DNA from: a virus
Virus record (IMG/VR): IMGVR_UViG_3300030060_001123
Location: 1 to 55,331 of that record
Strand: one strand, 5' to 3'
DNA length: 55,331 bases
In this document: one piece after another, positions 1 to 55,331 of the stretch
Layout: each line of letters begins with the position of its first letter
Numbering within the stretch: the stretch's first letter is position 1
Notes under the pieces: model-generated
Database searches by the model: none
Seen by the model: only the letters and a program-made list of their open reading frames with translations
Told to the model about the DNA's origin: nothing
Made by a program: the position numbers and the translations under genes

Positions 1-213
1 CTTGTGATTTAGTTGCCATATTCTATCGCTACTGTCACATCTACGTACATAACCTGATTTATAGGTTGCTAGTAGTTGACCTGTTGGCAATTTAAATTGA
101 CGTGTACCGTTTTTCCATTGTCTTTTTGTGGTAACTTCTACGATACCGTCTTCGTGAAGCATAGCACGTGCGTATGCATTTTCTAGTCGTAATTGTTCTT
201 GTCTCCAATTCAT
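1..213 (-). CDS. Hypothetical protein, 3' part beyond the left edge
   Basis: Leftward gene cut by the window edge: 71 codons from an ATG at 213 run open to base 1. It begins MNWRQEQLRLENAY and has a helical first 20 residues, then a short segment rich in Lys, Thr and aromatic residues. Its ATG shares one base with the TAA of the upstream 76-residue gene (TAATG), so the two are probably translationally coupled and transcribed together from the element at 453-494. I do not recognise a family. Coding character is supported by the coupling and the absence of stops, but the true length is unknown. Confidence 0.72.
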   Translation of the reverse strand, partial: MNWRQEQLRLENAYARAMLHEDGIVEVTTKRQWKNGTRQFKLPTGQLLATYKSGYVRRCDSSDRIWQLNHK

Positions 214-443
214 TATTCTGATTTTAAAAATTCATTTCCATACATAATATCTGCACCGTTAACATCATAACTATGTTTATCAGTGAACATTAGTATATCT
301 CTAATAGTATTTAATTGTAAGTCATACCAACCATCTGAAGCCATAAGTGTATACTTAAGTTTTTTAGCTGACGTGTACTTATGTGCAGCCAGTCTAATTT
401 TTAGTTGATAATTAGGTTTTAGTTGTTTCCAAACGTTTTTCAT
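213..443 (-). CDS. Small hypothetical early protein, 76 residues
   Basis: Leftward 76-residue protein, basic in its first half (many Lys/Arg between residues 1 and 35) and more acidic and aromatic at the end. It is the first gene behind the conserved upstream element at 453-494, with its ATG 10 bases from that element. Its stop overlaps the ATG of the next gene (TAATG). No domain recognised, no signal peptide or membrane segment. By position in the small-gene block it is probably an early phage protein; that role is inference only. Confidence 0.75.
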   Translation of the reverse strand: MKNVWKQLKPNYQLKIRLAAHKYTSAKKLKYTLMASDGWYDLQLNTIRDILMFTDKHSYDVNGADIMYGNEFLKSE

Positions 444-452
444 AGTTTTAAT

Positions 453-494
453 TTTATTATATTATCATTTAGTGTTAATATTATGTTTGTAAAC
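453..494 (-). promoter_or_regulatory. Conserved early promoter-like element, copy 1
   Basis: One of seven copies. Read on the leftward strand it has TACAAA, exactly 19 bp, then GATAAT followed by ATAATAAA, ending about 10 bases before the ATG at 443. The block order and spacing are identical in all copies. It does not give the TAnnTTTG box of Bacteroidetes sigma-A promoters on the transcribed strand, so a phage-specific or modified polymerase is possible. Confidence 0.6.
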
Positions 495-509
495 ATGACA
501 TTTTGTCAT
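495..509. repeat. Inverted repeat ATGACA-TTT-TGTCAT
   Basis: Perfect 6-bp inverted repeat with a 3-base centre, between the 3' end of the tRNA (514) and promoter-like element copy 1. The half-site TGTCA also occurs as five direct copies at 3394-3439. It could be an operator for the element beside it or a small hairpin after the tRNA; it lacks a T-run. Confidence 0.4.
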
Positions 510-513
510 ATAG

Positions 514-587
514 TTGCGGGAGGTAGATTCGAACTACCGACCTCAAGGTTATGAGCCTTGCGAGCTGACCAACTGCTCCATCCCGCT
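514..587 (-). tRNA. tRNA-Met (CAU), initiator-like
   Basis: Cloverleaf on the leftward strand: acceptor GCGGGA/TCCCGC, D stem GAGC/GCTC, anticodon stem CAAGG/CCTTG with loop CTCATAA (anticodon CAT), variable loop AGGTC, T stem GGTAG/CTACC with loop TTCGAAT. With U8 fixed at its usual place, positions 1 and 72 are an A-A mismatch (bases 587 and 515), and position 11-24 is A-U. Both are marks of bacterial initiator tRNA. Only two of the usual three G-C pairs are present at 29-31/39-41. CCA is not encoded. Most likely a phage-carried tRNA-fMet; an elongator tRNA-Met or lysidine-type tRNA-Ile remains possible. Confidence 0.85.
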
Positions 588-590
588 AAT

Positions 591-785
591 ATCTTACCGC
601 CATACACAATACACTTCCGTACGCTCGCTTATACTCGTCAGTAGTCGGCACCACATGTGTATGTAGCGGTAGATGTAATCTATTGATACATAAGCAGTTA
701 GCAATTCAGTTATGTGATAGAGCTTTGTTAAACCGCTTACCTATCCTAATTAACCTACTCGTCTAACTGGCGTCACCATAGATTA
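591..785 (-). ncRNA. Candidate structured RNA upstream of the tRNA
   Basis: About 190 bases with no convincing reading frame, richer in G+C than the flanks, directly 5' of the tRNA on the leftward strand. Visible helices: bases 656-674 with 591-608 (3 + 6 + 8 bp separated by one-base and two-base bulges, about 17 bp in all, 47-base loop); 778-785 with 676-683 (8 bp, perfect); 710-715 with 688-693 (6 bp). The 8-bp helix overlaps the stop codon of the upstream gene. It is not a second tRNA: there is no TTCRA T-loop. It does not look like tmRNA, 6S or RNase P to me. Function unknown. Confidence 0.4.
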
Positions 786-968
786 CAAGTGCCATTCTTT
801 TAATAATTTAATGGCTGGTGCTTTAATTTTATTAAACATAGCGTCGTCAAGTGGTTCTGTCCACTCTACTATTCTAAGCAATGTTCTTTCTAGTTCAGTA
901 CAAAGATATGCTGATTCTCTATCAACTATATCTTCTTTAATCATTTCGTATGCTTTTTTACTATCCAT
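783..968 (-). CDS. Small hypothetical early protein, 61 residues
   Basis: Leftward 61-residue, mostly helical protein with a charged N-terminus (MDSKKAYEMIKEDI) and a Leu/Trp-rich second half. It is the last gene of an operon of four running 1540 to 783, and its ATG sits two bases after the stop of the 59-residue gene. No family recognised. Its stop codon lies inside the possible RNA helix at 778-785. Confidence 0.72.
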   Translation of the reverse strand: MDSKKAYEMIKEDIVDRESAYLCTELERTLLRIVEWTEPLDDAMFNKIKAPAIKLLKEWHL

Positions 969-970
969 AT

Positions 971-1150
971 TTATTTTATTACTCGTTTAAATCTTGTTGT
1001 CATCCACTCACAGTTACTCATTGAGTGTCCCATGTCTGTTAGATAATCTTCTATTTTTTCTGCATCATCTATCCACACATCATATCTATATACTCTACCA
1101 TCTTGGTAATCGAGTACATATACATATTTTTTACCTTTAATCTTTTCCAT
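971..1150 (-). CDS. Small hypothetical protein, 59 residues
   Basis: Leftward ORF of 59 codons starting with ATG at 1150 and ending with TAA at 973-971. It begins MEKIKGKKYVYVLDYQDGRV, a beta-rich start followed by an acidic helix (DDAEKIEDYL). It overlaps the end of the 74-residue gene (1137) by 14 bases and is followed after two bases by the next ATG, so it fills an otherwise empty slot in a tight operon. I read this as a real gene. The YVLDY.DG.VYRYDVW pattern suggests a small beta-hairpin domain. No family name can be given. Confidence 0.7.
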   Translation of the reverse strand: MEKIKGKKYVYVLDYQDGRVYRYDVWIDDAEKIEDYLTDMGHSMSNCEWMTTRFKRVIK

Positions 1151-1361
1151 ATATTATTCTTTCTAAGTCGTCTCGTTTATAATTTCTTTTAGTTGGGTAG
1201 TTTAAATACCTTGTTTCTATGTCTCTAGCTTTTAATATATCTTCGTTCCATGTTCGCTGATCTATTTTGTAGAACGTGTAGAACACGCCACAAAAAAAAC
1301 ATATGCCACATATTATTACAAGATATAATAATCTTTCAAATATATTTACTTTCTTCTCCAT
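1137..1361 (-). CDS. Small single-pass membrane protein, 74 residues
   Basis: Leftward 74-residue protein with one strong hydrophobic segment at about residues 10-30 (LLYLVIICGICFFCGVFYTF), preceded by a short basic N-terminus and followed by a charged C-terminal tail. This predicts a one-pass inner-membrane protein with a cytoplasmic or periplasmic tail. It overlaps the upstream zinc-ribbon gene by 16 bases and the downstream gene by 14. Such membrane microproteins in phage early regions can act in superinfection exclusion or host membrane interference, but nothing in the sequence fixes the role. Confidence 0.72.
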   Translation of the reverse strand: MEKKVNIFERLLYLVIICGICFFCGVFYTFYKIDQRTWNEDILKARDIETRYLNYPTKRNYKRDDLERIIYGKD

Positions 1362-1540
1362 GCTTTGTGTACTGCAGCAGATAACTCTTGTGATACAACT
1401 TGTACTTCAAGTACTTGCTTGTTAGCTATAATTGGTATATAGCTTACTTTTTTAGTTGTGCTACAATCAACACACGTATTATAGCCTAATGCTACTCGAG
1501 CTGGTGGTATAATAGTATTTGGTTTACATTTACAGTACAT
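1346..1540 (-). CDS. Small zinc-ribbon-like protein, 64 residues
   Basis: Leftward 64-residue protein with two Cys pairs, CKC at residues 3-5 and CVDC at residues 23-26, spaced like a small four-Cys zinc ribbon of the DksA/TraR type. After them comes a beta strand region and a basic C-terminal helix (HKAWRRK). It is the first gene behind promoter-like element copy 2, its ATG directly against that element. A nucleic-acid or RNA-polymerase binding role is plausible from the fold, but the assignment rests only on the Cys pattern. Confidence 0.7.
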   Translation of the reverse strand: MYCKCKPNTIIPPARVALGYNTCVDCSTTKKVSYIPIIANKQVLEVQVVSQELSAAVHKAWRRK

Positions 1541-1541
1541 T

Positions 1542-1581
1542 TTTATTATATTATCAATTACTTATATTATTTTGTTTGTAA
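1542..1581 (-). promoter_or_regulatory. Conserved early promoter-like element, copy 2
   Basis: Leftward-strand TACAAA - 19 bp - GATAAT with the trailing ATAATAAA, immediately before the ATG at 1540. It overlaps the 3' end of the 32-codon ORF of the preceding operon, so transcription units are packed end to end. Confidence 0.6.
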
Positions 1582-1665
1582 ATACCTTAAATACTCTGTG
1601 TATTCTTGTGCGGTTACATACTCGTCTATCTCGTCTAGATACACCATATCATCTATTTCTTTCAT
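1567..1665 (-). CDS. Acidic microprotein, 32 residues
   Basis: Leftward ORF of 32 codons starting at 1665 (MKEIDDMVYLDEIDEYV). The start overlaps the stop of the 79-residue gene as ATGA, a classical coupling arrangement. That is the main reason to accept such a short gene. The product is strongly acidic with regularly spaced Tyr/Leu residues, consistent with a single amphipathic helix. No homologue recognised. Confidence 0.55.
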   Translation of the reverse strand: MKEIDDMVYLDEIDEYVTAQEYTEYLRYLQTK

Positions 1666-1901
1666 AATTTAAAAGTTTTTAAGTCATATTTCTCGTTATT
1701 TCCACGCCATATTTTACTATACGCAGCTTTATATTGTTTAGGAAACGATTTTTTTTGACTATGCTTTACATATCTATATTCTCTATCTGTCAAACCAGAG
1801 CAACTTCCGTTGATTCTTAGAAGCTCTCTGTGTTGATGGTTACGAGATTTACGCTTTTGTTTAACGTACTCGCATAATTCTTTCATATTAGTTACTACCA
1901 T
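1662..1901 (-). CDS. Small basic hypothetical protein, 79 residues
   Basis: Leftward 79-residue Lys/Arg/His-rich protein: residues 14-27 are almost all basic or polar (KQKRKSRNHQHREL), with a second basic patch near the middle. The charge suggests RNA or DNA contact, but no helix-turn-helix or zinc pattern is visible. It overlaps the upstream gene by 7 bases and the downstream 32-codon ORF by 4 bases, forming a three-gene operon behind element copy 3. The ATG at 1901 is used; an internal Met at residue 6 is an alternative start. Confidence 0.7.
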   Translation of the reverse strand: MVVTNMKELCEYVKQKRKSRNHQHRELLRINGSCSGLTDREYRYVKHSQKKSFPKQYKAAYSKIWRGNNEKYDLKTFKL

Positions 1902-2107
1902 TTGAATGGAGCTTCTATAAATGTTAAACCTTTGTAGTTAAACCAGTGTGATTTACCAAATTTATATTGGTCGTTACCATCTTCATCTTGACCTAGATGT
2001 TTTTCTTTAAAGCCAAATGAGTTAGGTAGATCACCAACTAGATAACCTTTATAATCAACTCCGTTTAGACGGCAAGTTGTTTTAGAAGTAAATTTAATTG
2101 TGTTCAT
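1895..2107 (-). CDS. Small hypothetical protein, 70 residues
   Basis: Leftward 70-residue protein rich in Gly, Phe and Lys, reading as a compact beta-rich domain (NGVDYKGYLVGDLPNSFGF, then a DEDGND turn). It is the first gene after promoter-like element copy 3 and overlaps the next gene by 7 bases. No recognised family. Confidence 0.7.
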   Translation of the reverse strand: MNTIKFTSKTTCRLNGVDYKGYLVGDLPNSFGFKEKHLGQDEDGNDQYKFGKSHWFNYKGLTFIEAPFKW

Positions 2108-2112
2108 AAGTT

Positions 2113-2152
2113 TTTATTATATTATCGATTAGTTGTTGTATTTTATTTGTAA
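2113..2152 (-). promoter_or_regulatory. Conserved early promoter-like element, copy 3
   Basis: Leftward-strand TACAAA - 19 bp - GATAAT plus ATAATAAA, six bases before the ATG at 2107. It overlaps the last codons of the 44-residue gene 2143-2277. Confidence 0.6.
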
Positions 2153-2277
2153 TAATTAGAATTAAATCTATTGTAATAGTTGTATTCAATCATTTCTAAT
2201 TGTTCTTTGTTTAATTTAAAGAGTTCAACTCTCTTATCTCTTCTTGCTTTCGCAAATCTATATAAATCTTTTTTCAT
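2143..2277 (-). CDS. Basic microprotein, 44 residues
   Basis: Leftward 44-codon ORF starting at 2277 (MKKDLYRFAKARRDKRVEL). The first 20 residues form a very basic helix and the C-terminal part is Asn/Tyr-rich. It lies 11 bases downstream of the 74-residue gene and ends inside the next promoter-like element, filling the operon. The product looks like a small nucleic-acid-binding or adaptor peptide; no family is recognised. Confidence 0.6.
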   Translation of the reverse strand: MKKDLYRFAKARRDKRVELFKLNKEQLEMIEYNYYNRFNSNYYK

Positions 2278-2288
2278 AGTATTAAGTA

Positions 2289-2513
2289 TTAGTCGCCAGT
2301 GTAATTATCCCATCTTGTCTTGCTCGCATAATATTCAGCAATAGCACCATCAGTTAACTTTGCTAATTCCTTATAGTAACCTTCGTTAGCAACTTTGTCA
2401 TCTCGCCACGCTTCTACATTTTTACGATGAGGTGATGAGTAGTGTTCATTATTTATTTCACAGTGAAACCAGTCACATTGAAATTTAGTGTTGTATGTTT
2501 TAAATATTCTCAT
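2289..2513 (-). CDS. Small hypothetical protein, 74 residues
   Basis: Leftward 74-residue protein with aromatic and His/Cys residues near the start (KFQCDWFHCEINNEHYSSPH) and a helical second half (YYKELAKLTDGAIAEYYASK). C14, H18 and C19 could bind a metal but do not match a known finger. First gene behind element copy 4, with its ATG three bases from the element. Confidence 0.7.
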   Translation of the reverse strand: MRIFKTYNTKFQCDWFHCEINNEHYSSPHRKNVEAWRDDKVANEGYYKELAKLTDGAIAEYYASKTRWDNYTGD

Positions 2514-2516
2514 AGT

Positions 2517-2556
2517 TTTATTATATTATCAGTTAGTGATTGTATTAAGTTTGTAC
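2517..2556 (-). promoter_or_regulatory. Conserved early promoter-like element, copy 4
   Basis: Leftward-strand GTACAAAC block, 19-bp spacer from TACAAA, GATAAT then ATAATAAA, ending three bases before the ATG at 2513. The 44-residue membrane gene upstream ends at its first bases. Confidence 0.6.
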
Positions 2557-2690
2557 TACCATCCACCAAACGTTATAGTTGGATTGTTAAACATTAAGTG
2601 ATATGAAACCATTAGTATTCCAGATATTGCAAGAGTTGCTAATGAATATAATAGTGTGTTAATCGCGTAGTGTTGAAATTTTCTTTTCAT
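2556..2690 (-). CDS. Small membrane protein, 44 residues
   Basis: Leftward 44-codon ORF from ATG at 2690 (MKRKFQHYAIN). A basic N-terminus is followed by one hydrophobic helix at about residues 12-34 (LLYSLATLAISGILMVSYHL) and a short polar tail ending FGGW. This predicts a single-pass membrane microprotein. It has no copy of the promoter-like element directly upstream, so it is probably read through from copy 5 with the 76-residue gene. No family recognised. Confidence 0.6.
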   Translation of the reverse strand: MKRKFQHYAINTLLYSLATLAISGILMVSYHLMFNNPTITFGGW

Positions 2691-2712
2691 TTTATAGTAT
2701 TTAATTGTTAGT

Positions 2713-2755
2713 TCTAGTGTGGGTAGTCGAAACCCACCACTGCTCCAAGACTAGA
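2713..2755 (-). other. tRNA-like hairpin, possible tRNA fossil
   Basis: On the leftward strand a T-arm-like hairpin TGGGT-TTCGACT-ACCCA (bases 2736-2720) is enclosed by a 6-bp stem TCTAGT/ACTAGA (2755-2750 with 2718-2713). Between them is TTGGAGCAGTGG, close to the D-arm of the tRNA at 514-587 (TGGAGCAGTTGG). The anticodon arm is missing. It looks like a decayed or minimised tRNA, or a tRNA-mimic hairpin between two genes. Confidence 0.4.
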
Positions 2756-2770
2756 TTTTAAGAGTGTTGA

Positions 2771-3001
2771 TTACTTTACTTCAACAACACCTCTTGCAGC
2801 TACAGGTACATTATTAGTAGCAGTGTATGATTTGTACTTTAACCAGCAAGGAAGTTTAGTTAGTGTATCTTTCATTACTTCAAACACTTTATCGTGATTA
2901 TATGTAGCAGTTTTGCCATTTTTAAAAGTAACATTGATAGTTTGATTTTTACCTACTAGTGATTGTCTAAGAACAAATCTTTTTGAATTTAATTGAGTCA
3001 T
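2771..3001 (-). CDS. Small hypothetical protein, 76 residues
   Basis: Leftward 76-residue, Lys/Thr/Val-rich protein that reads as beta-strands (RFVLRQSLVGKNQTINVTFK, then NGKTATYNHDKVFEV) with a central helix. The pattern resembles small phage proteins with an SH3-like or KOW-like barrel, but I cannot name a family. It is preceded by element copy 5 with a 37-base leader, longer than the other leaders in this block. Confidence 0.72.
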   Translation of the reverse strand: MTQLNSKRFVLRQSLVGKNQTINVTFKNGKTATYNHDKVFEVMKDTLTKLPCWLKYKSYTATNNVPVAARGVVEVK

Positions 3002-3038
3002 AATTTGAATTTTAATTGTTATTATTTAGTTATTTAAG

Positions 3039-3078
3039 TTTATTATATTATCATTGAGTGACAATATTTTGTTTGTAT
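3039..3078 (-). promoter_or_regulatory. Conserved early promoter-like element, copy 5
   Basis: Leftward-strand TACAAA - 19 bp - GATAAT plus ATAATAAA, 37 bases from the ATG at 3001. The stop codon of the 78-residue gene lies directly beside it. Confidence 0.6.
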
Positions 3079-3315
3079 TTATATTATAATATATTGTAAG
3101 TCAAGTTCATCAGTATAAATAGAATATGGAATATTATTTTTATTTAATTGTTGAATAGTGAAATCAATATAATCAATAGTGTATTCGAATAAAATAAATG
3201 TATTATTTTTGAATTTTTTAGATTTTATTTTATTATCAATAAAGAATTGAGTTGAGTCAGAAATGTAATGAATTTCGTCATTTGGTAGAATATTTTGTAG
3301 TTGATTATAAGTCAT
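3079..3315 (-). CDS. Small hypothetical protein, 78 residues
   Basis: Leftward 78-residue acidic protein, very Ile/Asn/Asp/Tyr-rich, alternating short helices and strands (MTYNQLQNILPNDEIHYIS at the start). It is the first gene of the whole leftward early block, 12 bases behind element copy 6, and its base composition is even more AT-rich than its neighbours. No domain recognised. Confidence 0.65.
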   Translation of the reverse strand: MTYNQLQNILPNDEIHYISDSTQFFIDNKIKSKKFKNNTFILFEYTIDYIDFTIQQLNKNNIPYSIYTDELDLQYIII

Positions 3316-3327
3316 ATTATTTATTAT

Positions 3328-3367
3328 TTTATTATATTATCGAGTAGTAATAGTATTAAGTTTGTAA
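3328..3367 (-). promoter_or_regulatory. Conserved early promoter-like element, copy 6
   Basis: Leftward-strand TACAAA - 19 bp - GATAAT plus ATAATAAA, 12 bases before the ATG at 3315. A cluster of five TGTCA repeats lies directly upstream (3394-3439), so this copy may be the regulated head of the early block. Confidence 0.6.
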
Positions 3368-3387
3368 GTGTATATTTGTTTAGTTGT

Positions 3388-3456
3388 TTATAATGTCAAG
3401 ATGTCATTGCACAAAGTGTCATAGTATGTCATAATGTCATTATTAAATATAGTCAT
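3388..3456 (-). other. Cluster of five TGTCA direct repeats, with a 22-codon ORF
   Basis: TGTCA begins at 3394, 3402, 3417, 3427 and 3435 on the rightward strand. On the leftward strand the same bases form a 22-codon ORF (3456 to 3388) starting MTIFNNDIMTYYDTL, in which the repeats read as Met-Thr, Asp-Thr and Asp-Ile pairs. The tract sits between promoter-like copies 7 and 6, so it could be an operator or iteron cluster, or a short leader gene of copy 7. Confidence 0.4.
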
Positions 3457-3488
3457 TTAACTTTGTTTATTATTATTCTTTTTACATT

Positions 3489-3525
3489 TAAATTATCATT
3501 GTATGAGAATATTAAGTTTGTAAAG
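3489..3525 (-). promoter_or_regulatory. Conserved early promoter-like element, copy 7 (diverged)
   Basis: TACAAA - 19 bp - GATAAT is kept on the leftward strand, but the following ATAATAAA is reduced to TTAAATG. No gene longer than 22 codons starts behind it before copy 6. On the opposite strand it reads TAAGTTTG, a Bacteroidetes-type TAnnTTTG box facing the structural genes, so it may also work rightward. Confidence 0.45.
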
Positions 3526-3747: not shown

Positions 3748-3891
3748 TAGATAGGAGTAATATATTATATATTATATTATATAATAGAAGTATATATTAC
3801 ACAGCAATTTTTGAATTTACCCAAATAAATGTAAATTTTTTAATTTATATGTAAGTATACTTAATGTACACTTCACACAAAAAACAATATT

Positions 3892-4323
3892 ATGAACGGA
3901 GCATTTACCCCAAAACTTATTAAAAACTTAAAGAACGCTATGAAAGCTAAACACGCTGGATCAGTGCTTAGAAAATTAGAAAAAGATACTTCTGTAGTTG
4001 GAAATAACCGTGCGGACAACGTATTAATGAAAAATGGTGACAAAAAAAAGCAAGAAGGAGTTATTATGGAAGCTAGTAGAGATACCAATAAAATAATATA
4101 TCCAACAATATCCTCAGCAGACAGCACTAAAATTAGAGGAGCTTACGAATATTTAAAATCTCCTAACAAACAGCAAATTTTAGATAATAGTCGTTCATCA
4201 GCTACTGTTGAAGAAGCAGATAGTTACAATTTTAATAAATTAAGAAATTTAGCTGGGACATATGGTCTTACCGCTGTAAAAGGTGTTAGAGATTTTTTCG
4301 GCTATGGACCAAAAAATAATTAA
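3892..4323 (+). CDS. Hypothetical protein at the head of the structural block, 143 residues
   Basis: First rightward gene. The N-terminal 55 residues are strongly basic (FTPKLIKNLKNAMKAKHAG, then KLEKD). The rest is Ser/Asn-rich and ends with an aromatic Gly-rich tail (DFFGYGPKNN). No signal peptide or membrane segment. It sits three bases before a tail-fibre-like gene, so a virion role is likely from context, but I do not recognise the family. Confidence 0.75.
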   Translation: MNGAFTPKLIKNLKNAMKAKHAGSVLRKLEKDTSVVGNNRADNVLMKNGDKKKQEGVIMEASRDTNKIIYPTISSADSTKIRGAYEYLKSPNKQQILDNSRSSATVEEADSYNFNKLRNLAGTYGLTAVKGVRDFFGYGPKNN

Positions 4324-4326
4324 AAC

Positions 4327-9017: not shown

Positions 9018-9296
9018 ATGGCAAACATTCCTTTAACCTACAAGCTATCATTTTATAATCCATCAAAACCAGGTGGAACGGTAGCTGTACAGAACAATAA
9101 TACAAACGAATCAACATCAACTGCTACACAGTTTAGTATGGCAGATTTACTAAACACAATAGGAGCTGGCGCTCCTGTATACGCTGACAATACAGCTGCA
9201 GTAGCAGGTGGATTAGCAGTTGGAGATGTTTATCAAACAGATGGAACTGCAGCAGCACCTCAAAATATTGCTGGTGGTCTTTATGCTGTAGTATAG
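9018..9296 (+). CDS. Minimal virion appendage protein, 92 residues
   Basis: Consists almost only of the two cassettes found in the neighbouring 222-residue protein: the N-terminal MANIPLTYKLSFYNPSKPGG block, and the C-terminal block with YADNTAA and then VGDVYQTDG. The variable middle domain is absent. It looks like a short paralogue arising by duplication and loss of the central domain. It probably sits at the same virion site. Confidence 0.68.
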   Translation: MANIPLTYKLSFYNPSKPGGTVAVQNNNTNESTSTATQFSMADLLNTIGAGAPVYADNTAAVAGGLAVGDVYQTDGTAAAPQNIAGGLYAVV

Positions 9297-9310
9297 TAAA
9301 TTAACACTTT

Positions 9311-9330
9311 AACAAGTGATTATATAAATA
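9311..9330 (+). promoter_or_regulatory. Possible late promoter-like motif, copy 1
   Basis: In the 82-base gap before gene 9379 the motif AACAAGTGATTATA is followed by TAAATA, giving a T4-late-like TATAAATA. The same 14 bases occur at 32229-32242 upstream of a tail gene. Only two copies were noticed, so the call is tentative. Confidence 0.25.
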
Positions 9331-9378: not shown

Positions 9379-9696
9379 ATGACGTTTTATTATTCGACTA
9401 GAACGTGGAATAGTCAACCACAAATATCCGAAGACCAAATTAAACTTTGGAAACATCTTTCAGAAAAGAAAAACTGGAGGATAACACAATTACCTAACGG
9501 TTTCTTCCAAACGGAATACAAAGACATTGAGTGTCCTTGTAATCCCGATGAAGATCACTGCTGCGAAAAATGGCATGATGTTACAAGAAGAGAGACTATT
9601 GAAGGAGCAGAAGCAGCTATTGATGGATCAGTAGAGCACTATGCTAAAAAAGTAGATTTCTTAAAAGGACCAAAGGTAGTTAAAACCTTTAAATAG
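9379..9696 (+). CDS. Hypothetical protein, 105 residues
   Basis: A 105-residue acidic protein with a helical N-terminal part (SEDQIKLWKHLSEKKNWRI), a Cys/His/Trp cluster at about residues 53-66 (CPCNPDEDHCCEKWHD) that could bind a metal, and a C-terminal helix (RETIEGAEAAIDGSVEHYAKK). The gene lies 33 bases before groEL. It may be co-expressed with the chaperonin genes. The family is unknown to me. Confidence 0.7.
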   Translation: MTFYYSTRTWNSQPQISEDQIKLWKHLSEKKNWRITQLPNGFFQTEYKDIECPCNPDEDHCCEKWHDVTRRETIEGAEAAIDGSVEHYAKKVDFLKGPKVVKTFK

Positions 9697-36697: not shown

Positions 36698-39600
36698 ATG
36701 TTTGAAGAATATCAAGATGGTAATACTATTTTTGAAGTATCACCAGATAGACTACAAGACTTTTTGAAGCAATATCCTAACGCTCAGAAAAGAACAAAAG
36801 AAACTGAAACACCAAGTATTGTGCTTGAATCAGAGTATATAGGAGAGCCTTTACCTACAACTGCTCCACCAAGACAATACATTACGTTTAATACTACTCA
36901 ACCTAAAGTAACAAATAATAAAGGTCAAGTATTACGTGGTGGGCTTAAAGAAAACTTTGTTGTATACAAAGACGAGTATAACCCTGACGACTACGGTATG
37001 AGCTTTGAAGAATATGCTAAACGTATGGGTGTTGATATTAAAGAAGAAAAAGATTCTGATTTTGAAGTTGATGAAAGCATTGAACCAGTTGTGTTAGGTG
37101 AAAAGAAAACTACATTAGTACCTGGTGATAAGTCAACGGCGTTTCCATCTTTGGGTGCAGAAGTTGTAGAAGATGAAATAGAAAGTATCAAACCGTCGAA
37201 AAAAAGTAAAGCTTTAAATAATTACAGATCAGAGTTTTTAGAAAGAATGAAGTTTATAAAACCTGATAATTATAAAAACGAAACAGTTAGCTATGTGTTT
37301 GATAGTTATACAGATAAAGTTTATAATGAAAATGCTGAAAAATTTCGAGCAAACTTACGAATTGACGAAGGAGAAACATTTAAAGACGAGATGTCAAAGG
37401 CTATTGGTTTTGGAAATGTAGGTAGAAGAATATTAAAAAGAGGTAAAGGACTAGACCCTACACAAATTGTTGAAGGGGCAGATTTTCAAGTAGAACCAGG
37501 CGAATACGAACAAATGTATAATTTATTACAAGAGCAAATGCCTGCAGAACTATTCTCAATGTTTGAGCAGGTTGGTTTTGATTCATCTAAAATAGATTAT
37601 TCTAAAGTTATGAAAATGGCTCAAGAAAATCCTAATATAAGAAATCAAATTAATAATTTTATACAAGAAACAAAAGCTAAAGAAACAACTTACATACAAA
37701 ATAAATATTCTAATGTATTAAGTACTGATCAAATGTATTTAGCTATACCTCAACCTAATCCTGATTGGAATACAAGACAAGATAGAGTTGCTTCACAAAA
37801 TGAAGAGGTTAAAAAAAGATATAGAGCTAAATTAGCTGAAGCTGGTTTTACACCTGATTTAATAGCTTATTATACTAACAACATGGAGTTTGGTTCTAAT
37901 AAAATACCTGATCAATTCCAAGCTGCTTCAATGCCTGGTTATGATGATGATTTTATATTACAAGATCCTAAAAAAGCTATATCACTAGAAGAACGTAAAG
38001 CTTATTTTAAAGGTTTAGAAGAATTTGAAAAAAATCAAAGAGAAATTTTTAAACAAGAAATAAATAATTATAATATAAAAAACGCTCCTGTTGTACAAGA
38101 GATAGCAGATATGAGATCTCAAATAGAATCTATAAACGTAGATGATATTAAAACAGATGGTGATGCTGATTATTACAACTCTTTAATAGAACAATACAAT
38201 AATAAAATTACAGAGTATGCAACTAGTGATTTAGCTCAAGAAGGTTTAACCTTATATAGCCAATCAGAATACTTAGCAGATATAGGAAATCAAATAATGA
38301 ACCAAGCTAACATACAGCAAAATGTAGATTTAGCAGCGTATGGCGCAGAGTTTAATTATAATAATTTAGATAAATTTTTAGCAACTATTGAAACACAGTT
38401 GTTAGCGCCTGGCGCAATGTTGGGTGCAAGTATAATAAATAGAATTGCTGAAACAGTTCAAGAGGGAATATTTGCAACATCAGTGCCAGCACAGCTCTAT
38501 AATACTGCTGACGCATTTTTAAGTGGTGAAGAAGTTGGAGATATAATGTTAGGTAGTAACAAGCCTGATTATACTGGTTTAAAAAATGGCGCGCTTAATT
38601 ATTATAAAGCTGTAACAGAAGACTATGAAAAACAATTTGCTCCTCCTATAAAAATTAGTGATGTAATGGACGATAGATCTGCTGCTAATTTTGGCGACTG
38701 GCTTAGTGGAGCTACAGCTGAAAACGGTTTAACTATAGCGCAGGTATTAGGACCAAGTTTAGTTGCCCGTGTAAGTGTTCAACTTCAAAAACAGGCTTTT
38801 AAAAAAGCTCTTACAAAAGGTAAAAACTTTAATCCTGATTTATATAAATTAAAACCAGGTGGTAACATCGCTAACAAAGAGGACTGGATACCAAAGGTAA
38901 GTGCTGGTAAAGGATATTATAAAAAGAAACCTGGTAAAGAATTATTTTTTGACGAAAATAATTTAGATAGTAGATTGTTTGATTTAACTATAAAGAAAAA
39001 AGCTTTACAAAGAGCTAATAACGTTACAATGGCTAGTTTTTTTACTGCTACAGGTGGTGGAGAAATGGGTAGACTAGAAGCTAGTTTTCAAAAAGCAGAA
39101 TCTGAATTAGTAAAATTAAGAGCAGCTTTAGCTGAAGAAAAAGATCCAAACAAACAAAATGAAATACTAAGCCAAATAGATTATTATGAAAACGTAGCTG
39201 ATAGCGCTGCTTGGCAAAGAACTTTTCAAGGCTTATTGTTTGGTACAACAGAAATGTATGCAGAAAAATTTGGTACATTAAGATATGTTAATGATATTAG
39301 GTTTACTAGAAATATGTATGGTAGAAAAGGTCTTGAAGATACGTTTACTAAAGGTTGGAGAAATACTAGTTACTGGAAAAATAGAGCTAAAGATTTAGGA
39401 GCTGGAACTTATAACTTAGGATATGGAGTTACTATAGAGAATTTTGAAGAAATACTTACAGCAGGAGGACATGGTTTAATTAAAAGAATTGTGGTTGGAA
39501 GCAATGATCCTGTTTTGAAAGAAGTAAACATGGATTTAATAGCAAACACTACATTTGCTAGTTTAATGATGCAGTCACCTAATACCGCTAGTAATCTTTA

Positions 39601-42600
39601 TAACTTTATTAGATACGAGTCTAGCACTTATAGTGATTATCAAAGAGCTGTACAATACGGTACTGAAAGAGCTAAAATACAAGAGCAATTAAATGATTTA
39701 AATATTACTCCTGAAAAAAGAAAAGAGTTAAATAAAAAAATGGAAAAATTAAATCAACTTGTTAGATTAGATAGTCATAACAAGCTGATGAGATACAACA
39801 GGTTAAGTGATAAAAACAAAGAGCTTTATTTAGAACTTAGAGCTAAACAAAATTTCCAAGAAAAACAACTTTATCAAATAGCTGGTAGTGGAAACTTTGG
39901 ACAAGATGGATTTGCTGAAAATTTTGAAGCAGCAAAGAAAAGGGTTTTAAAAACAAATGATCAACTTCAAGAAGTATTAACTGATACAAGATCAAGACAG
40001 AAATATAAAGACAAGCTTAAAGAACTTAAAAAATTTAATGAAGATGGAGGTTTAAATCTTTCGTTTGTAAATCCAGAAGTTGCTAATGCTAATCAATTAT
40101 TATATGAAACAGCAAAAGAAATGGCAGAGCTGTTGTCTGAAAAACAAGTAATATCTTTTAGTAGCGCGCAAGAAATTGAAAGCTTTATTAAGACAAATAA
40201 TATATCTGATTCAGTCGCAGAAGAGTTAAGAAAAATGGGTTATGCCTACAACGATCCTAATGGTAATATATATTTAAATGAAAATAATATATATTCTTCT
40301 TTAGTAGGTGTTAACTCTCTAGAGCTAGGTCTTACTTTTATGGACGCAAAAGATGTAATAAAAGCTTTAAAGACTGGAGAAGTAGAAACTAATATATTAA
40401 CTCAAGCAAGTACATACGAGCAGTTTAGAGCAGCAATAGCCCCATTACATGAGGTAATACATGATGAAATAGATAGAAGAAAAATATTTAGCGGTGTGTA
40501 TGAAAACGCTAAAGAAGCTGCTATGGGTATTTCAAATGTTTTAAAAAATAAAGTAGACAGCGATCAATTAGATAGAGGTATATACGAGAAAATAACAAAA
40601 ATTATTGATAAGTATAAAAATGAAGATGGAGAAGTTGTAGACGCTAGTGAATTTATAACAGTGTTAGGTGAGGCAATGCTCGGTGGTTATTTAAGCGTTA
40701 ATGATTTAGCAAACATGCATGGTGTTAAATCTTTTCTTAATAACGTATTTAGAAAATTAGGACCGTTGGGTAGTGCTATGGTAGATATTACTGATCCTTT
40801 TGGAACACCTCAAGATATGTATAATTTTATAGCTGAGTATGTTAGAAAGCAAATTGTAAAAGGAGATGTAACAGCTGTAAGAATACCTGAAGAAGAAAAA
40901 GAAAGATTAAAGCTTGAAACAGAGGGTAGACAATCTGTTGCAAATGTTGACGCGCCTAGACTTGATAAGAAAAAATTTAACCTTCAAAACCTTACTAACG
41001 AGCAATTAATTAGAAAACTTAAAAATGCTAAAGGTTACGAAAAACAAGTTATAGAAGATATATTAATAGACGCAGCGGCTAGAGTAGGTTTAAGAACAAT
41101 GGGCTTTGATAGTAGAGCTGGTCTTGGAAATATAACGTATGAAGAAGGTTATCAAGTTGCTAGAGAAAGAGTTATTGATAGAGGTTTATTAAATAAATTT
41201 GATCCTCGTATAAATGATAATTGGAGTACGTACGCTGGTAGTCAATTAAAGTTTGATTTAACAGATGTTATAGAAAGAAATAAAAAGAAACTTGATACTG
41301 AAAGTACAGATAGTGAAATTGCCAAACAAGTTGAAGACACTACAGATACTACAACTGAAGTAGTTGAAGAAACTGCTGTTGAAGAAGTAGAGCCTACTAT
41401 AGATATATTTGATATATTACCTTCAGAAATTAGACAAGAAGCCCAAGAAGAAATAGATACAAAAATAAAAGATAATAACATTGATCTAAGCGATGCTAAC
41501 TTAACGTTTAAGGAACTACAACAGATAGCGCCATACGAAACATTAGCAAAATATTTTGGAATCCCTGTATCACGTATTACACAACCTCAAGATAACTTAA
41601 GAAAAGGTGATGACATATCTAAAATACAAATGTTTATATTAAAAAATGTTGATAAACTTGTAAACACTAGACCAAAAGGTAACGCAGATGTTGTTCAAAC
41701 CAAAGCTGTTGGTGAACTTAAAGCTAAATTAGAAGGTGGTCAATCAGCCGGTATAAGATCAAGAAACTTTTTAAATACAGAATACGATAAAGTTTTAGAC
41801 GCAAAAGGTAAACAAAAAAAGATAAATAATAATTTACAGTATAGAATAAAACCAGGTAATAGAAATAGATTTTTAAAAGCATCGGGTATTACCAATAATA
41901 AAGTAGATAAAAACTATATACCAAGAGGACCTGAGTCTCAATATATAAAAGGTGTGTTAGAGTTGTTAGCTAGAAACATGGCGTTAACAGGTTTTGGTCA
42001 AGCTGTTGATCAGCAACAAGATCAAGCTGTGCAAGAAGAAACTACAACACCAGAAAAAGCAGCAACAAGAAAAGCTACTGCAAGACAAAAGACAGCGCCT
42101 GCTAAAGCCCCACTACTTAGGTTTTCTCAAATGGCAAATGAAGTAGAGAAGATTATAAATATAAGAGGTGATTTTAATCTTGACGAAAAAGGTATAGATA
42201 GATTATTAGAAAATTTAAAGTTAGATAAAACTTTTGATTTAAAAAAATCTGAGGGAAGAACTAAGTTTGTAGAAGTAATTAAAAAGAACTTACTACCTTT
42301 AATGCCTAAAGACTTTTGGTTTGGTACAAGAAAAGATGGTAAAGTTACTAGTTCTGCTTTTACAGCTAGCAACAAAACATATGGTTTAAGCATGGGTAAC
42401 AAAGAAGAAGCTGATGCTTACAATGCTTTTAAAGATGAAATATTTGCTATAGGTAATAACCCTGAAACTAAATTTGGAAAACCTATACAGTATAAAGATG
42501 AAAATGGAAAAACTATAACTGTTGATTTAAAGAGTGTTACAAAAAATTATAAAACAATTTTTGGCGACAAGACTAATTATAAAGATAAAATAGTAAAAGG

Positions 42601-45600
42601 TTTTAAAGATGGATCTATAGATAATTGGAATAAAAATGTAGCTTCAATACATAAAGAAATGTGGAAGCGTTTTAACAAAGCTCTTAACTCTGAAAACAGA
42701 ACTGCTGAAGCACAAGCTATTGGTACTTATTTAAAACTAGTTGCTAATGACACTTCTAGTTGGCACAAACTTGGTGCTCAATTAGTTGGCTACTCAAAAG
42801 AATTACAGCAAAGAAAAGAAGGGTCTATTAATATAGAGTTTGAGCACGCTATGCCTGCTACAGCTGCTTACTTGTATTTAATGGATGCAGCACTGCAAGA
42901 TCAAGTAGACTTTAATACAGCATATGATTTAGTTATAGATAACTATAAGCTTATTGTTTTAGATAAAGCAATGGACGATAAACTTCGTAACGCTAGAACA
43001 GCATCAGGTTATAGTTTACAAAGACGTATGCCAGATAACTGGAGTGTTGTAGATGGTAAATGGTGGCAAAGATATTTTAATGAAATAGTTGCTGCTCAAA
43101 ATGGAGGTATTGATCCTAGCTCTATTATAGGTTTAGATGGTAAATCATTTGCTGAAACATTTAAAGTTGATGCTAAAGGCCAACCAACTACAAAAGAAAT
43201 AGAAGACGCTAAACAAAAAGCAGCTAAACCAAACGCTAAAAGATTACCAAAACAAGTTGCTCCAAAGAGACAATCAATAACTAATAATGAGATATTAGAT
43301 AGATTAGGTAACTTACAAAAAGCTTTTTTAATAGCGCAAAACCCAAACAACGAAAGTAAAGGTATAAGTGTTTATGATTTTGATGACACATTAGCTTTTA
43401 GTAAAAGTAAAATTATAGTTACATTTCCTGATGGTAGAGTAACTAAAATTACACCAGCTGAATTTGCAACAGATTCTGTTGATCTTGAAGGCCAAGGCGC
43501 TGTGTTTAATTTTGAAGAGTTTAATAAAGTTGTTGGTGGTAAACCTGGTCCATTAGCAGATAGGCTTAAAAAAGCTATTGATAAGTTTGGTAATAAAAAC
43601 ATATATGTTTTAACTGCCAGACCAGCATCGGCAGCTCCAGCTATATACGAGTTTTTAAAAGGTATTGGATTAGAAATACCACTAAATAATATAGTTGGTT
43701 TAGAAGACGGTAGTCCTCAAGCAAAAGCTGATTGGATTATAAGTAAAGCAGCTCAAGGTTTTAATGATTTTTATTTTGTTGATGATGCTGTTAAAAATGT
43801 AAAAGCTGTTCAAGACGCTTTAAATATATTAGATGTTAAATCAAAAGTACAAGTAGCTAGACGTAGAAATAGTGTCCAGATGGACAATGAGTTCAACGAA
43901 ATGATTGAAAGAAAAACCGGTATTAAATCCTATAAAGAATATTCAAAAGCAAAAGCTGCATTAGTTGGTAAGACCAGAAAGGATAAAAAGTTTTTTATTC
44001 CACCTAGCGCAGATGATTTTGTAGGATTATTATATAGTGTTGTTGGTCAAGGTAAACAAGGAGATGCAGATTTAAAATGGATAAATGATAATTTATTAAT
44101 GCCGTTTGCGTATGCTATGCAAGCAGTATCACAAGCCAATATATCAATGCAAAATGATTATAAGGCATTAAAGAAAGAATTAAAAATTGTACCTAAAGAT
44201 TTAAGAAAAAAAATACCTGGTTCTGTATTTAACAAAGAACAAGCGGTAAGAATTTATATATGGAATAAACAAGGTATGTCTGTTCCAGGTTTAAGCAAGT
44301 CTGATTTAAAAGAAATAGACGATTATATAAATGAAAATGAGTATTTAAAGGTTTTTGCAGATCAACTTATTAATATATTAAAGGGAGAAAAATATGCTAA
44401 GCCAAGAGAGGGTTGGTTAGCTGGAACTATTACAACAGATTTATTTGACACATTACAAACAGGTACGCGTGCCATGTATCTACAAGACTGGCAGAGAAAT
44501 GTTGACGTTATATTTTCTGAAAAGAATTTAAATAAACTAGAAGCAGCATTTGGCAAACCATATAGAGTAGCTTTAGAAAATATATTAAAACGTATGAAAA
44601 CCGGTATTAATAGAACTGGTTTTAGTGATAAGCTAACTTCAAATGTTACTGATTGGTTTACTAATAGTATTGGTGTAATAATGTTCTTTAATACTAGATC
44701 AGCATTGCTTCAAACTATATCTTCAGTTAACTTTATTAATTTAGAAGACAACAATATAATTGCTGCTGGTAAAGCTTTTGCAGATCAAAAACAATATTGG
44801 AAAGACTTTATGATGATAATGAACTCACCGTTTTTAAAAGAAAGACGAGGAGGTTTAAGGTTCAATGTAAATGAAAGTGATATTGCTGATATGGCTAGAA
44901 AAGATGGTATGCGAGGTGTAGTAGCTAAATTATTACAACTAGGTTTCTTACCAACTCAAATAGCAGATAGTGTAGCTATTGCAACAGGTGGTGCTACTTT
45001 TTATAGAAATAGAGTTAATACTTATATTAAAGAAGGGTTTAGCCAAAGTGAAGCTCAAGAAAAAGCATTTATAGATTTTAGAGAAATAGCTGAAGAGTCT
45101 CAACAATCAAGTAGACCTGATAGAATATCAAAGCAACAAGCTGGTCCACTAGGTAGATTAATTCTAGCTTTTGCTAATACACCTATGCAGTACGCAAGAC
45201 TTATTGGAAAAGCTATAGATGATTTAAAAAATAGAAGAGGTAATTGGAAATCTAGTGTTTCTAAAGTTATACATTATAGTATAATGCAAAACTTAATATT
45301 TACAGCCACTCAACAAGCTCTGTTTGCAATTGGTATGGGAGACTTTGATGAAGAAGATAAAGAAGAAAAATATGTAGGAACAGCAAACAACATGATGGAT
45401 AGTTTGCTTAGAGGTTTAGGCTTTGCAGGTGCTGTAGCTTCTGTTATTAAAAATGCTATACTAAGAGGTGTTAAAGAAAGTAAAAAATCAAAACCAGAGT
45501 ATGAAAAAATAGCATATGAATTATCTAGAATATCTCCACCTATATCTTCTAAGTACTCTAGAGTTACTCAAGTTGGTAGGGCTCTCAGCTGGGATATGGA

Positions 45601-45895
45601 CGACATGCAGAGCATGGGATGGGATATACAAAACCCAGCATATTTAGCCGCTGCACAAGTTATAGCTGTTGCATTTAATATACCATTAGATAGGGCTGTA
45701 ATAAAAGCTAGAAACATAGATGACGCTTTACATTCTGATCTTCAAACTTGGGAACGATTAGCTTTAATAGGTGGTTGGAGAGCCTGGGAATTAGGATTAG
45801 AGGATAGAATAAGACCTAAGAAAAAGAAAACAAAGAAAAGAAAACCAAACGTATTACGAAGCGGTGTTAAAATTAAAGGTGTAAAAATAAATTAA
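36698..45895 (+). CDS. Giant polyvalent virion protein, 3065 residues
   Basis: One of the largest proteins a phage of this size would encode. Visible parts: N-terminus FEVSPDRLQDFLKQYPNAQK; a long charged helical region; a zincin-like helix H1251-E-V-I-H1255-D; a mixed region with FEHAMPATAAYLYLM near 2050; a HAD-type phosphatase segment D2227-F-D-D-T2231 followed by FVLTARPAS-like and DDA motifs near 2300-2370; hydrophobic helices near residue 2865; and a Lys-rich end. This fits a polyvalent protein packaged in the virion and injected with the DNA. No RNA polymerase motif is evident. Confidence 0.72.
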   Translation: MFEEYQDGNTIFEVSPDRLQDFLKQYPNAQKRTKETETPSIVLESEYIGEPLPTTAPPRQYITFNTTQPKVTNNKGQVLRGGLKENFVVYKDEYNPDDYGMSFEEYAKRMGVDIKEEKDSDFEVDESIEPVVLGEKKTTLVPGDKSTAFPSLGAEVVEDEIESIKPSKKSKALNNYRSEFLERMKFIKPDNYKNETVSYVFDSYTDKVYNENAEKFRANLRIDEGETFKDEMSKAIGFGNVGRRILKRGKGLDPTQIVEGADFQVEPGEYEQMYNLLQEQMPAELFSMFEQVGFDSSKIDYSKVMKMAQENPNIRNQINNFIQETKAKETTYIQNKYSNVLSTDQMYLAIPQPNPDWNTRQDRVASQNEEVKKRYRAKLAEAGFTPDLIAYYTNNMEFGSNKIPDQFQAASMPGYDDDFILQDPKKAISLEERKAYFKGLEEFEKNQREIFKQEINNYNIKNAPVVQEIADMRSQIESINVDDIKTDGDADYYNSLIEQYNNKITEYATSDLAQEGLTLYSQSEYLADIGNQIMNQANIQQNVDLAAYGAEFNYNNLDKFLATIETQLLAPGAMLGASIINRIAETVQEGIFATSVPAQLYNTADAFLSGEEVGDIMLGSNKPDYTGLKNGALNYYKAVTEDYEKQFAPPIKISDVMDDRSAANFGDWLSGATAENGLTIAQVLGPSLVARVSVQLQKQAFKKALTKGKNFNPDLYKLKPGGNIANKEDWIPKVSAGKGYYKKKPGKELFFDENNLDSRLFDLTIKKKALQRANNVTMASFFTATGGGEMGRLEASFQKAESELVKLRAALAEEKDPNKQNEILSQIDYYENVADSAAWQRTFQGLLFGTTEMYAEKFGTLRYVNDIRFTRNMYGRKGLEDTFTKGWRNTSYWKNRAKDLGAGTYNLGYGVTIENFEEILTAGGHGLIKRIVVGSNDPVLKEVNMDLIANTTFASLMMQSPNTASNLYNFIRYESSTYSDYQRAVQYGTERAKIQEQLNDLNITPEKRKELNKKMEKLNQLVRLDSHNKLMRYNRLSDKNKELYLELRAKQNFQEKQLYQIAGSGNFGQDGFAENFEAAKKRVLKTNDQLQEVLTDTRSRQKYKDKLKELKKFNEDGGLNLSFVNPEVANANQLLYETAKEMAELLSEKQVISFSSAQEIESFIKTNNISDSVAEELRKMGYAYNDPNGNIYLNENNIYSSLVGVNSLELGLTFMDAKDVIKALKTGEVETNILTQASTYEQFRAAIAPLHEVIHDEIDRRKIFSGVYENAKEAAMGISNVLKNKVDSDQLDRGIYEKITKIIDKYKNEDGEVVDASEFITVLGEAMLGGYLSVNDLANMHGVKSFLNNVFRKLGPLGSAMVDITDPFGTPQDMYNFIAEYVRKQIVKGDVTAVRIPEEEKERLKLETEGRQSVANVDAPRLDKKKFNLQNLTNEQLIRKLKNAKGYEKQVIEDILIDAAARVGLRTMGFDSRAGLGNITYEEGYQVARERVIDRGLLNKFDPRINDNWSTYAGSQLKFDLTDVIERNKKKLDTESTDSEIAKQVEDTTDTTTEVVEETAVEEVEPTIDIFDILPSEIRQEAQEEIDTKIKDNNIDLSDANLTFKELQQIAPYETLAKYFGIPVSRITQPQDNLRKGDDISKIQMFILKNVDKLVNTRPKGNADVVQTKAVGELKAKLEGGQSAGIRSRNFLNTEYDKVLDAKGKQKKINNNLQYRIKPGNRNRFLKASGITNNKVDKNYIPRGPESQYIKGVLELLARNMALTGFGQAVDQQQDQAVQEETTTPEKAATRKATARQKTAPAKAPLLRFSQMANEVEKIINIRGDFNLDEKGIDRLLENLKLDKTFDLKKSEGRTKFVEVIKKNLLPLMPKDFWFGTRKDGKVTSSAFTASNKTYGLSMGNKEEADAYNAFKDEIFAIGNNPETKFGKPIQYKDENGKTITVDLKSVTKNYKTIFGDKTNYKDKIVKGFKDGSIDNWNKNVASIHKEMWKRFNKALNSENRTAEAQAIGTYLKLVANDTSSWHKLGAQLVGYSKELQQRKEGSINIEFEHAMPATAAYLYLMDAALQDQVDFNTAYDLVIDNYKLIVLDKAMDDKLRNARTASGYSLQRRMPDNWSVVDGKWWQRYFNEIVAAQNGGIDPSSIIGLDGKSFAETFKVDAKGQPTTKEIEDAKQKAAKPNAKRLPKQVAPKRQSITNNEILDRLGNLQKAFLIAQNPNNESKGISVYDFDDTLAFSKSKIIVTFPDGRVTKITPAEFATDSVDLEGQGAVFNFEEFNKVVGGKPGPLADRLKKAIDKFGNKNIYVLTARPASAAPAIYEFLKGIGLEIPLNNIVGLEDGSPQAKADWIISKAAQGFNDFYFVDDAVKNVKAVQDALNILDVKSKVQVARRRNSVQMDNEFNEMIERKTGIKSYKEYSKAKAALVGKTRKDKKFFIPPSADDFVGLLYSVVGQGKQGDADLKWINDNLLMPFAYAMQAVSQANISMQNDYKALKKELKIVPKDLRKKIPGSVFNKEQAVRIYIWNKQGMSVPGLSKSDLKEIDDYINENEYLKVFADQLINILKGEKYAKPREGWLAGTITTDLFDTLQTGTRAMYLQDWQRNVDVIFSEKNLNKLEAAFGKPYRVALENILKRMKTGINRTGFSDKLTSNVTDWFTNSIGVIMFFNTRSALLQTISSVNFINLEDNNIIAAGKAFADQKQYWKDFMMIMNSPFLKERRGGLRFNVNESDIADMARKDGMRGVVAKLLQLGFLPTQIADSVAIATGGATFYRNRVNTYIKEGFSQSEAQEKAFIDFREIAEESQQSSRPDRISKQQAGPLGRLILAFANTPMQYARLIGKAIDDLKNRRGNWKSSVSKVIHYSIMQNLIFTATQQALFAIGMGDFDEEDKEEKYVGTANNMMDSLLRGLGFAGAVASVIKNAILRGVKESKKSKPEYEKIAYELSRISPPISSKYSRVTQVGRALSWDMDDMQSMGWDIQNPAYLAAAQVIAVAFNIPLDRAVIKARNIDDALHSDLQTWERLALIGGWRAWELGLEDRIRPKKKKTKKRKPNVLRSGVKIKGVKIN

Positions 45896-45896
45896 T

Positions 45897-45950
45897 ATGA
45901 ATGAAAAAAATACTTGCCCTATCTGCAGTGGTTACTGTGGTTTGTGCTAA
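45897..45950 (+). CDS. Cys-rich microprotein, 17 residues (frame 1 of a dual-coded spot)
   Basis: ATG at 45897, one base after the giant gene, encodes MNEKNTCPICSGYCGLC: CPIC and CGLC pairs typical of a tiny zinc knuckle. It overlaps almost completely with a second short ORF in another frame at 45901. Which of the two is translated cannot be told from sequence. Confidence 0.35.
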   Translation: MNEKNTCPICSGYCGLC

Positions 45951-45957: not shown

Positions 45958-45966
45958 TTTAAAAAA

Positions 45967-55151: not shown

Positions 55152-55331
55152 TTATTCCCAAGGCATTGGTTCTTTTTTTATTTGATCTACAACGTGCGGT
55201 ATGAATGAACCTGAATTTGGTTCCCACTTAAAGTGACATTCAGCTCCGTTTTCTCCGAGATTTTGAAACTTAACTTTAAGTACTTTTGCTTTAACTGTTT
55301 TCGCATCATAATCCCTGTGTACGAGAATGCC
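55152..55331 (-). CDS. C-terminal end of a possible replicative helicase (partial)
   Basis: Sixty codons (59 residues and a stop) enter from the right edge in the leftward direction. The fragment reads GILVHRDYDAKTVKAKVLKV, then KFQNLGENGAECHFKWEPNS and ends PMPWE. This resembles the ends of Twinkle/T7 gp4-like or DnaB-type phage helicases, where a 'hydrophobic-V-H-R-D' strand precedes a conserved K-V-R-F segment. The evidence is a short tail only, so the call is tentative. Its neighbours in nucleotide metabolism fit a replication gene. Confidence 0.4.
   Translation of the reverse strand, partial: GILVHRDYDAKTVKAKVLKVKFQNLGENGAECHFKWEPNSGSFIPHVVDQIKKEPMPWE

Follow-up and report, generated by a model that had tools for sequence, protein, structure and literature searches.

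Phages of the phiEco32 group combine a sigma factor of their own (phi32_gp36; SaPh711_gp47 in phage 7-11) with phage-specific middle and late promoters, and their early promoters are of the host sigma70 type. In Crassvirales the early genes form a separate block (available text of PMC8375218), and the phage phi14:2 carries a virion RNA polymerase (RNAP), gp66. The primary sigma factor of Bacteroidetes reads a two-part promoter placed upstream of the start, with TTTG at -33 and TAnnTTTG at -7. Beyond phi14:2, little is known of the promoters that Bacteroidetes phages use or of the factors that give them specificity. Here we describe a promoter-like element, named E, in a stretch of 55,331 bases (hereafter, the window) that covers positions 1 to 55,331 of the 56,157-base virus record IMGVR_UViG_3300030060_001123 (G000), together with a predicted sigma factor and a second putative promoter class, named L, in the clade to which this phage belongs. 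As in phiEco32-like phages, a phage sigma occurs here alongside phage-specific promoters; the difference lies in the early class, since E has a non-host consensus and is highly specific.

The original prediction described seven leftward copies of TACAAA and GATAAT separated by exactly 19 bp, and all seven were found in the window as exact matches on the minus strand (Table 1). An eighth exact match, on the plus strand at 35369-35399, was taken as a chance occurrence: it scores below the threshold of 14 of a matrix built from 350 E sites, and it lies within a long open reading frame (ORF). At this threshold the matrix retrieved only the seven sites in the window and none in five Markov controls. 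When up to one mismatch was allowed in the pattern, the window had 11 matches, against a mean of 1.62 (largest value 5) in 100 dinucleotide shuffles. Six of the seven copies continue with the same downstream sequence, ATAATAAA, as had been noticed, and in these an ATG follows 1-37 nt past it, in close agreement with the 2-37 bases first reported. The seventh copy continues with TTAAATGTAA, carries a second downstream form, GATAATTTAAATGTAA, and has no ORF nearby. The idea that only the spacing is kept, the spacer sequence being free, did not hold: in the window, spacer positions 7-13 read [CT]-WW-AATA and the remainder varies, and in the relatives positions 7-16 are mostly C-W-AAATACGA, which leaves nine free bases, so that a 16-bp upstream block is conserved there too.

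The scan of relatives with the matrix, proposed earlier as a check, found E in all 11 phage genomes considered, with 71 sites, 3-10 per genome and on a single strand in each, against no match in 55 Markov controls; the loci on which the matrix was trained include these 11 genomes. The sites are clustered within genomes when the two ends of a record are treated as joined. The consensus in relatives is TACAAACWAAATACGA-N9-GATAATATA. Among the matches listed, a profile of 154 sites, with GATAATATAATAAA and TAC as anchors in loci fetched by motif pattern, reads TACAAAC-W-AAATACGA, nine loosely constrained bases and GATAATATAATAAA; likewise among the matches listed, TACAAA lies exactly at -25 in 143 of 175 distinct GATAATATAATAAA sites, partly by construction, the loci being pattern-fetched. 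The information content of E is about 38.7 bits, a value inflated by the selection of the sites with a matrix over most of these positions. An exact-pattern scan of viral contigs returned at least 119 stretches, and a homologue of the window portal protein was present in 28 of 28 records tested (27 from the motif scan and one, G028, from a portal search). E was found in none of 15 sister-clade records of 37-65 kb, with member records positive in four of four, and the matrix scan did not find it in elemoF or in the first 50 kb of either phi38:1 or phi14:2. Among the matches listed from the literature, no report of E or of the clade sigma was found. The promoter-like character of E ahead of small leftward genes, as originally proposed, was borne out and extended by its conservation in relatives: E appears to be a real, clade-wide and phage-specific promoter class, which would work like the early promoters of phages with a sigma cascade.

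The base composition downstream of E is informative on the start of transcription. At offset 12 after the G of GATAAT a purine is present in 99% (G 57%, A 41%) of 369 sites, namely those whose first long ORF begins at least 25 nt away, and in 69% of them it is preceded by T or C. Furthermore, of the 807 sites with an ORF, 103 have the start codon exactly at offset 12, and only 4 and 9 have it at offsets 11 and 13, respectively. The purine signature and the ATG peak together place the probable +1 at offset 12, with part of the genes leaderless, so GATAAT would occupy -12..-7 and TACAAAC -37..-31. The element would then have a sigma-type geometry, with AAATACGA at -29..-22, GATAATA at -12..-6 and a purine start. 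A -10-like box at a fixed distance before a purine is what a sigma-dependent bipartite promoter is expected to show, here as a sequence signature. A block of small genes, which gene position alone marks as probably early, very probably takes its start signals from the E elements.

The repetition of the 16-bp upstream block, and the 16-bp palindrome that precedes several genes in the corresponding block of the relative MW202828, could also be read as the mark of an operator or of another protein-binding site. We consider this very improbable, as E has a direction and a constant place ahead of the starts, and combines an AT-rich -10-like box with a suitably spaced purine. As had been pointed out, E is not the Bacteroidetes promoter either: it is two-part and upstream of the start like the latter, but it has neither of its boxes, and the profiles contain no TAnnTTTG at -7. 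Host-type promoter matches in the 11 genomes carrying E numbered 132, against 139 for the reversed pattern; five strict matches were intergenic, and within 250 nt of these no ORF begins on the same strand.

The search for a phage sigma-like gene outside the window, also suggested at the outset, found one in relatives, in a section that the window record lacks. Its product forms a core family of 250-254 aa in the clade. The Pfam domains Sigma70_r2 and Sigma70_r4 are listed, in this order, in seven of seven proteins at E-values up to 1; TIGR02937 is the best model for three of three, above its cut-off in two, and sigma chains in PDB match with an E-value of 7e-10. The predicted structure (pLDDT 80.9, pTM 0.47) gave, among its best 50 Foldseek matches listed, only sigma chains or sigma complexes (best E-value 1.5e-5). 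Region order and fold are those of the sigma-70 family, and on sequence and model the relatives are predicted to encode a compact member of it, which would bind core and initiate transcription. Membership of the sigma-28 (FliA) group was rejected, as most of region 3 is missing from the alignment and FliA models score far below their cut-off.

The sigma gene was found in 22 of 28 records tested, corresponding to 22 of the 27 motif-scan records. It was not matched in G008, G015, G023, G026, G027 and G028, of which G008 and G027 lack the entire section, nor in any of six outgroup phages, elemoF, phi38:1 and the whole phi14:2 record being among those scanned. By tblastn there was no match among 50,697 GenBank phage records, and none of the 15 sister-clade records (37-65 kb) matched with profile A2, run without a positive control, profile A1 having matched earlier. 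Eighty loci were fetched by sigma, some on contigs that overlap earlier ones, and 65 of them carry E: 351 sites lie on the sigma strand and one on the opposite strand, against none for the reversed matrix. In 61 of 61 loci with more than 3.5 kb upstream, E precedes sigma on the same strand, and the 15 loci without E all have less room than this. In the near relative L257 (79-96% identity to the window over 11 matched ORFs), the homologue of the window site at 491 is at 121 and sigma at 4024-4767. Two sigma copies are present in G004, and in G017 and G019 the match to sigma is interrupted by stops or fragmented, as is that to the portal in G019.

A helix-turn-helix (HTH) family, A3 (e.g. L261:5584-6195; about 204-213 aa), adjoins sigma in 119 of 126 sigma loci with more than 1.2 kb upstream, and its gene usually overlaps the sigma gene start. 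Its predicted model (pLDDT 90.1) had no Foldseek match in PDB at an E-value of 0.001 or below. A3 was discarded as the reader of the E upstream block, because L256, L257 and L258 retain E but their ORF lists include no such protein ahead of sigma.

The second pattern, L (GTAAA-N15-GTRANTATA), was reached from dyad counts on the other strand. Of 139 sigma loci with enough sequence past the sigma stop, 57 have an exact L at -4..+21 relative to that stop, 38 of them at +9, and upstream control windows contained none. In total, 140 sigma loci contain 87 exact L, against 3 for the reversed pattern. L also stands at the heads of late operons, and in G012 the copy after sigma sits before an ERF gene. 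In the 15 sister-clade records there was no exact L, and one-mismatch matches were 5 against 11 reversed; of four member records, three had an exact L. The sigma of phage 7-11 uses late promoters of the form GTAAtg-(16)-aCTA, with the same -35 core as L (available text of PMC8948821).

With a confidence only slightly above even, we favor a cascade in which E elements are the promoters of a first gene class, read by host core RNAP with a non-standard specificity, and the sigma then directs the core to L. E would serve as one promoter per gene or small gene group, and the host core is the most likely polymerase on it because E shows a sigma-type geometry. In relatives the E sites precede the sigma gene in the same orientation, and the sigma would be made after the products of the E genes. 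The phage sigma would most likely steer the host core to L, a role favored by cascade logic and by the observed position of L directly after sigma. The proposed order would be E genes, sigma, L genes.

Several observations weigh against this proposal. The first long ORF begins upstream of the putative +1 in 35 of 807 sites, some at offsets 4-6, so that either the start site assignment fails there or another promoter reads those genes. In F. johnsoniae, leaders exceed 10 nt in 87% of predicted transcripts (available text of PMC6847099), so a host of this kind would not usually have leaders as short as those proposed here. The search for host-type promoters used one strict pattern. As regards sigma, the Pfam cut-off is passed by region 2 in three of seven proteins and by region 4 in two of seven, and the whole-chain TM-score of the model to solved sigmas is 0.27-0.36 (rmsd 18-24). 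At scan threshold the L matrix, built from 15 sites, gave 5 matches in the window against 1, 4, 4 and 5 in Markov controls; because this is not above the controls, the case for L rests on two high window scores and on the exact-pattern counts. No exact L is near the sigma stop in 82 of 139 sigma loci. Finally, a FliA-like G in region 2.4 could also suit the G at -12 of E.

Another possibility, which we hold as tentative and somewhat doubtful, is that E is itself recognised by the phage sigma on the host core, either as its only target or along with L, through a self-amplifying loop or delivery in the virion. The presence of sigma goes with that of E (sigma in 22 of 27 motif-scan records and 0 of 6 outgroups, in addition to the 61 loci above), region 2.4 reads RIKGAI, like RIRGAM in FliA, with an invariant R at the T440 position that could suit the G at -12, and the -10 regions of E and L both read G--A-TATA. 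In four sigma genes (L362, L379, L409 and L411) E lies 37-38 nt before the matched start. On the other hand, the upstream block of E differs by subclade: it is NCGAA-type in L256, L259, L260 and L268 and TACAAAC in L257 and L258, and four E sites of L261-L263 have CACGRAC or TCCGGAC. These variants were found through the GATAAT half, whose constancy is therefore by construction. Over these nine loci the sigma-4 helix shows only I/V, L/M and K/R changes, and an exact L follows sigma in eight (the exception being L258). Because the block changes and the sigma-4 helix and L barely do, sigma-4 is probably not the reader of the E upstream block. No clear covariation emerged between E positions and alignment columns of sigma or of the HTH protein, and the sigma needed for its own first transcript would have to come from elsewhere. 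E may be read by the same sigma through its region 2 together with a further factor, or else by a host factor or a virion component.

A block transcribed first would need a reader that is already present, as a host sigma factor with host RNAP would be. Strict E matches were found, one each and ahead of an ATG, on L418, L420, L421 and L422, contigs of Flavobacteriaceae/Flavobacteriales metagenome-assembled genomes with no homologues in the phage protein set used. We nevertheless judge host sigma unlikely as the reader: E-like sites in those four genomes (two mismatches or fewer) number 9 against 6 reversed, with no host regulon evident; across the whole bacterial collection the strict pattern has just 8 matching stretches; hosts use the consensus TTTG/TAnnTTTG (available text of PMC6847099); and E is very specific, even if its information content is inflated by site selection. 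The four matches may represent remnants, or genes that the phage factor activates; that of L418 comes after a tRNA-like sequence, and L421 and L422 share the same site. Contigs with clade genes also occur in genomes labelled Aliivibrio (L416), Ilumatobacteraceae (L417), Prochlorococcus (L419) and Flavobacteriaceae (L423); they are probably misbinned or co-sorted, L419 being based on one weak match only.

The T7 promoter consensus has an AATACGA-N9-G layout and a conserved stretch after the G that resemble E, if the G of GATAAT is +1. A virion-borne polymerase or specificity factor, unrecognised by sequence, could read E, as in N4 or crAss-like phages. A virion polymerase transcribes the early genes in phi14:2 and probably in crAss001 (available text of PMC8375218), and the window phage has the crAss muzzle domain and, beside its structural genes, a giant protein. 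The last ~700 residues of the giant are conserved and its first part is highly variable among relatives. The giants of three NCGAA-type phages do not cluster with those of near TACAAA-type phages, and part of their center is common to the three and absent or weak in the others, but the giants of TACAAA-type phages also differ among themselves, and the association of the giant with E type is weak and at best suggestive. The T7-like reading of E was rejected on the purine at offset 12, which speaks against the G as +1, and on the lack of a T7-type RNAP: PF00940 matched none of 31 records (28 with a window-type portal), none of two sigma-clade records and nothing in the window's own record, searched without its missing section, with T7 and N4 positive. 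No conserved DxDxD motif homologous to that of phi14:2 was found in the window phage, there being one unconserved copy in the giant, which also has a HAD-like stretch, DFDDT, and one in a 596-aa ORF. An hhalign comparison of the giant with N4 gp50, T7 and phi14:2 gp66 gave no match, although the control of N4 gp50 against T7 failed too, and no RNAP family was found in three further giants. With no match in these weak or insensitive tests, the giant was not retained as an N4- or crAss-type polymerase. Overall, we regard a virion-borne reader as improbable, and give the same low weight to its extended form, in which a virion-delivered factor or polymerase, perhaps the variable part of the giant, reads E, and E, sigma and L together amount to a full takeover of transcription.

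As regards its identity, the window phage has terminase, portal and virion structural genes and also encodes ribonucleotide reductase (RNR), thymidylate synthase and a GroEL-like protein (Cpn60_TCP1). Its portal is closest, among GenBank phages, to that of MW202828 (50% identity), with further matches to Elemovirus, Maribacter Panino, Cellulophaga and Tenacibaculum phages. A 1521-aa protein contains the crAss_MUZ domain (PF25731; 50.5 bits against a cut-off of 27, residues 13-165 only), the muzzle mark of Crassvirales membership. The Elemovirus and Pervagoviridae/Pachyviridae phages have a related portal but lack sigma (elemoF, phi38:1) and E (elemoF and the first 50 kb of phi38:1). In elemoF (L009) two host-type TTG-N-TATATTTG promoters, at 18128 and 18356, head the early-position block, with no E-like promoter per gene, and MW202828 (L010) has eleven perfect 16-bp palindromes GTGTCGTTAACGACAC at 43733-49891, several before small-block genes, where the window clade has E. 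The clade would consist of uncultured phages of 60-70 kb with Bacteroidetes-type hosts. The window record is probably a fragment, because it has no end repeat and in its relatives an extra section separates the early block from the primase; the gene families located there are missing from the window record and its near twins G008 and G027, out of 11 genomes compared. The features of the window are listed in Table 1.

Table 1. Positions of the E and L elements and of neighboring features in the window (match, exact TACAAA-N19-GATAAT; +1, putative start)
Feature	Position	Strand	Details
E element 1	454..491	-	match 461-491; TACAAAC 491-485; +1 A 454; score 35.5; before ORF 213-443
E element 2	1543..1580	-	match 1550-1580; +1 A 1543; score 36.3; before ORF 1346-1540
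E element 3	2114..2151	-	match 2121-2151; +1 A 2114; score 41.1; before ORF 1895-2107
E element 4	2518..2555	-	match 2525-2555; +1 A 2518; score 42.5; before ORF 2289-2513
E element 5	3040..3077	-	match 3047-3077; +1 A 3040; score 32.8; before ORF 2771-3001
E element 6	3329..3366	-	match 3336-3366; +1 A 3329; score 41.1; before ORF 3079-3315
E element 7, first of block	3485..3522	-	match 3492-3522; +1 G 3485; score 18.6; no ORF start close
L element (GTAAA-N15-GTAAGTATA)	3831..3859	+	score 23.0; head of rightward/structural block, ORF 3892-4323
L element (GTAAA-N15-GTGATTATA)	9296..9324	+	score 29.0; before ORF 9379-9696 and GroEL-like gene group
Small leftward ORF block	213..3315	-	served by E elements; several ORFs have homologues in L256, L257, L258
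tRNA-Met (CAT), single	513-587	-	inside early-position block
Giant 3065-aa protein	36698..45895	+	beside structural genes
Partial primase/helicase gene	55152..55331	-	continues to 55805 in record; sigma-bearing section of relatives falls past record end

Taken at the strength stated above, these results describe a whole phage clade with two sharp phage-specific promoter classes and a predicted sigma factor of its own. Its hosts probably have standard promoters unlike those of other bacteria, and the clade lends itself to direct tests of the way in which such a phage gains control of transcription. Furthermore, E, L and the sigma could possibly provide orthogonal promoter/sigma pairs for Flavobacterium genetics.

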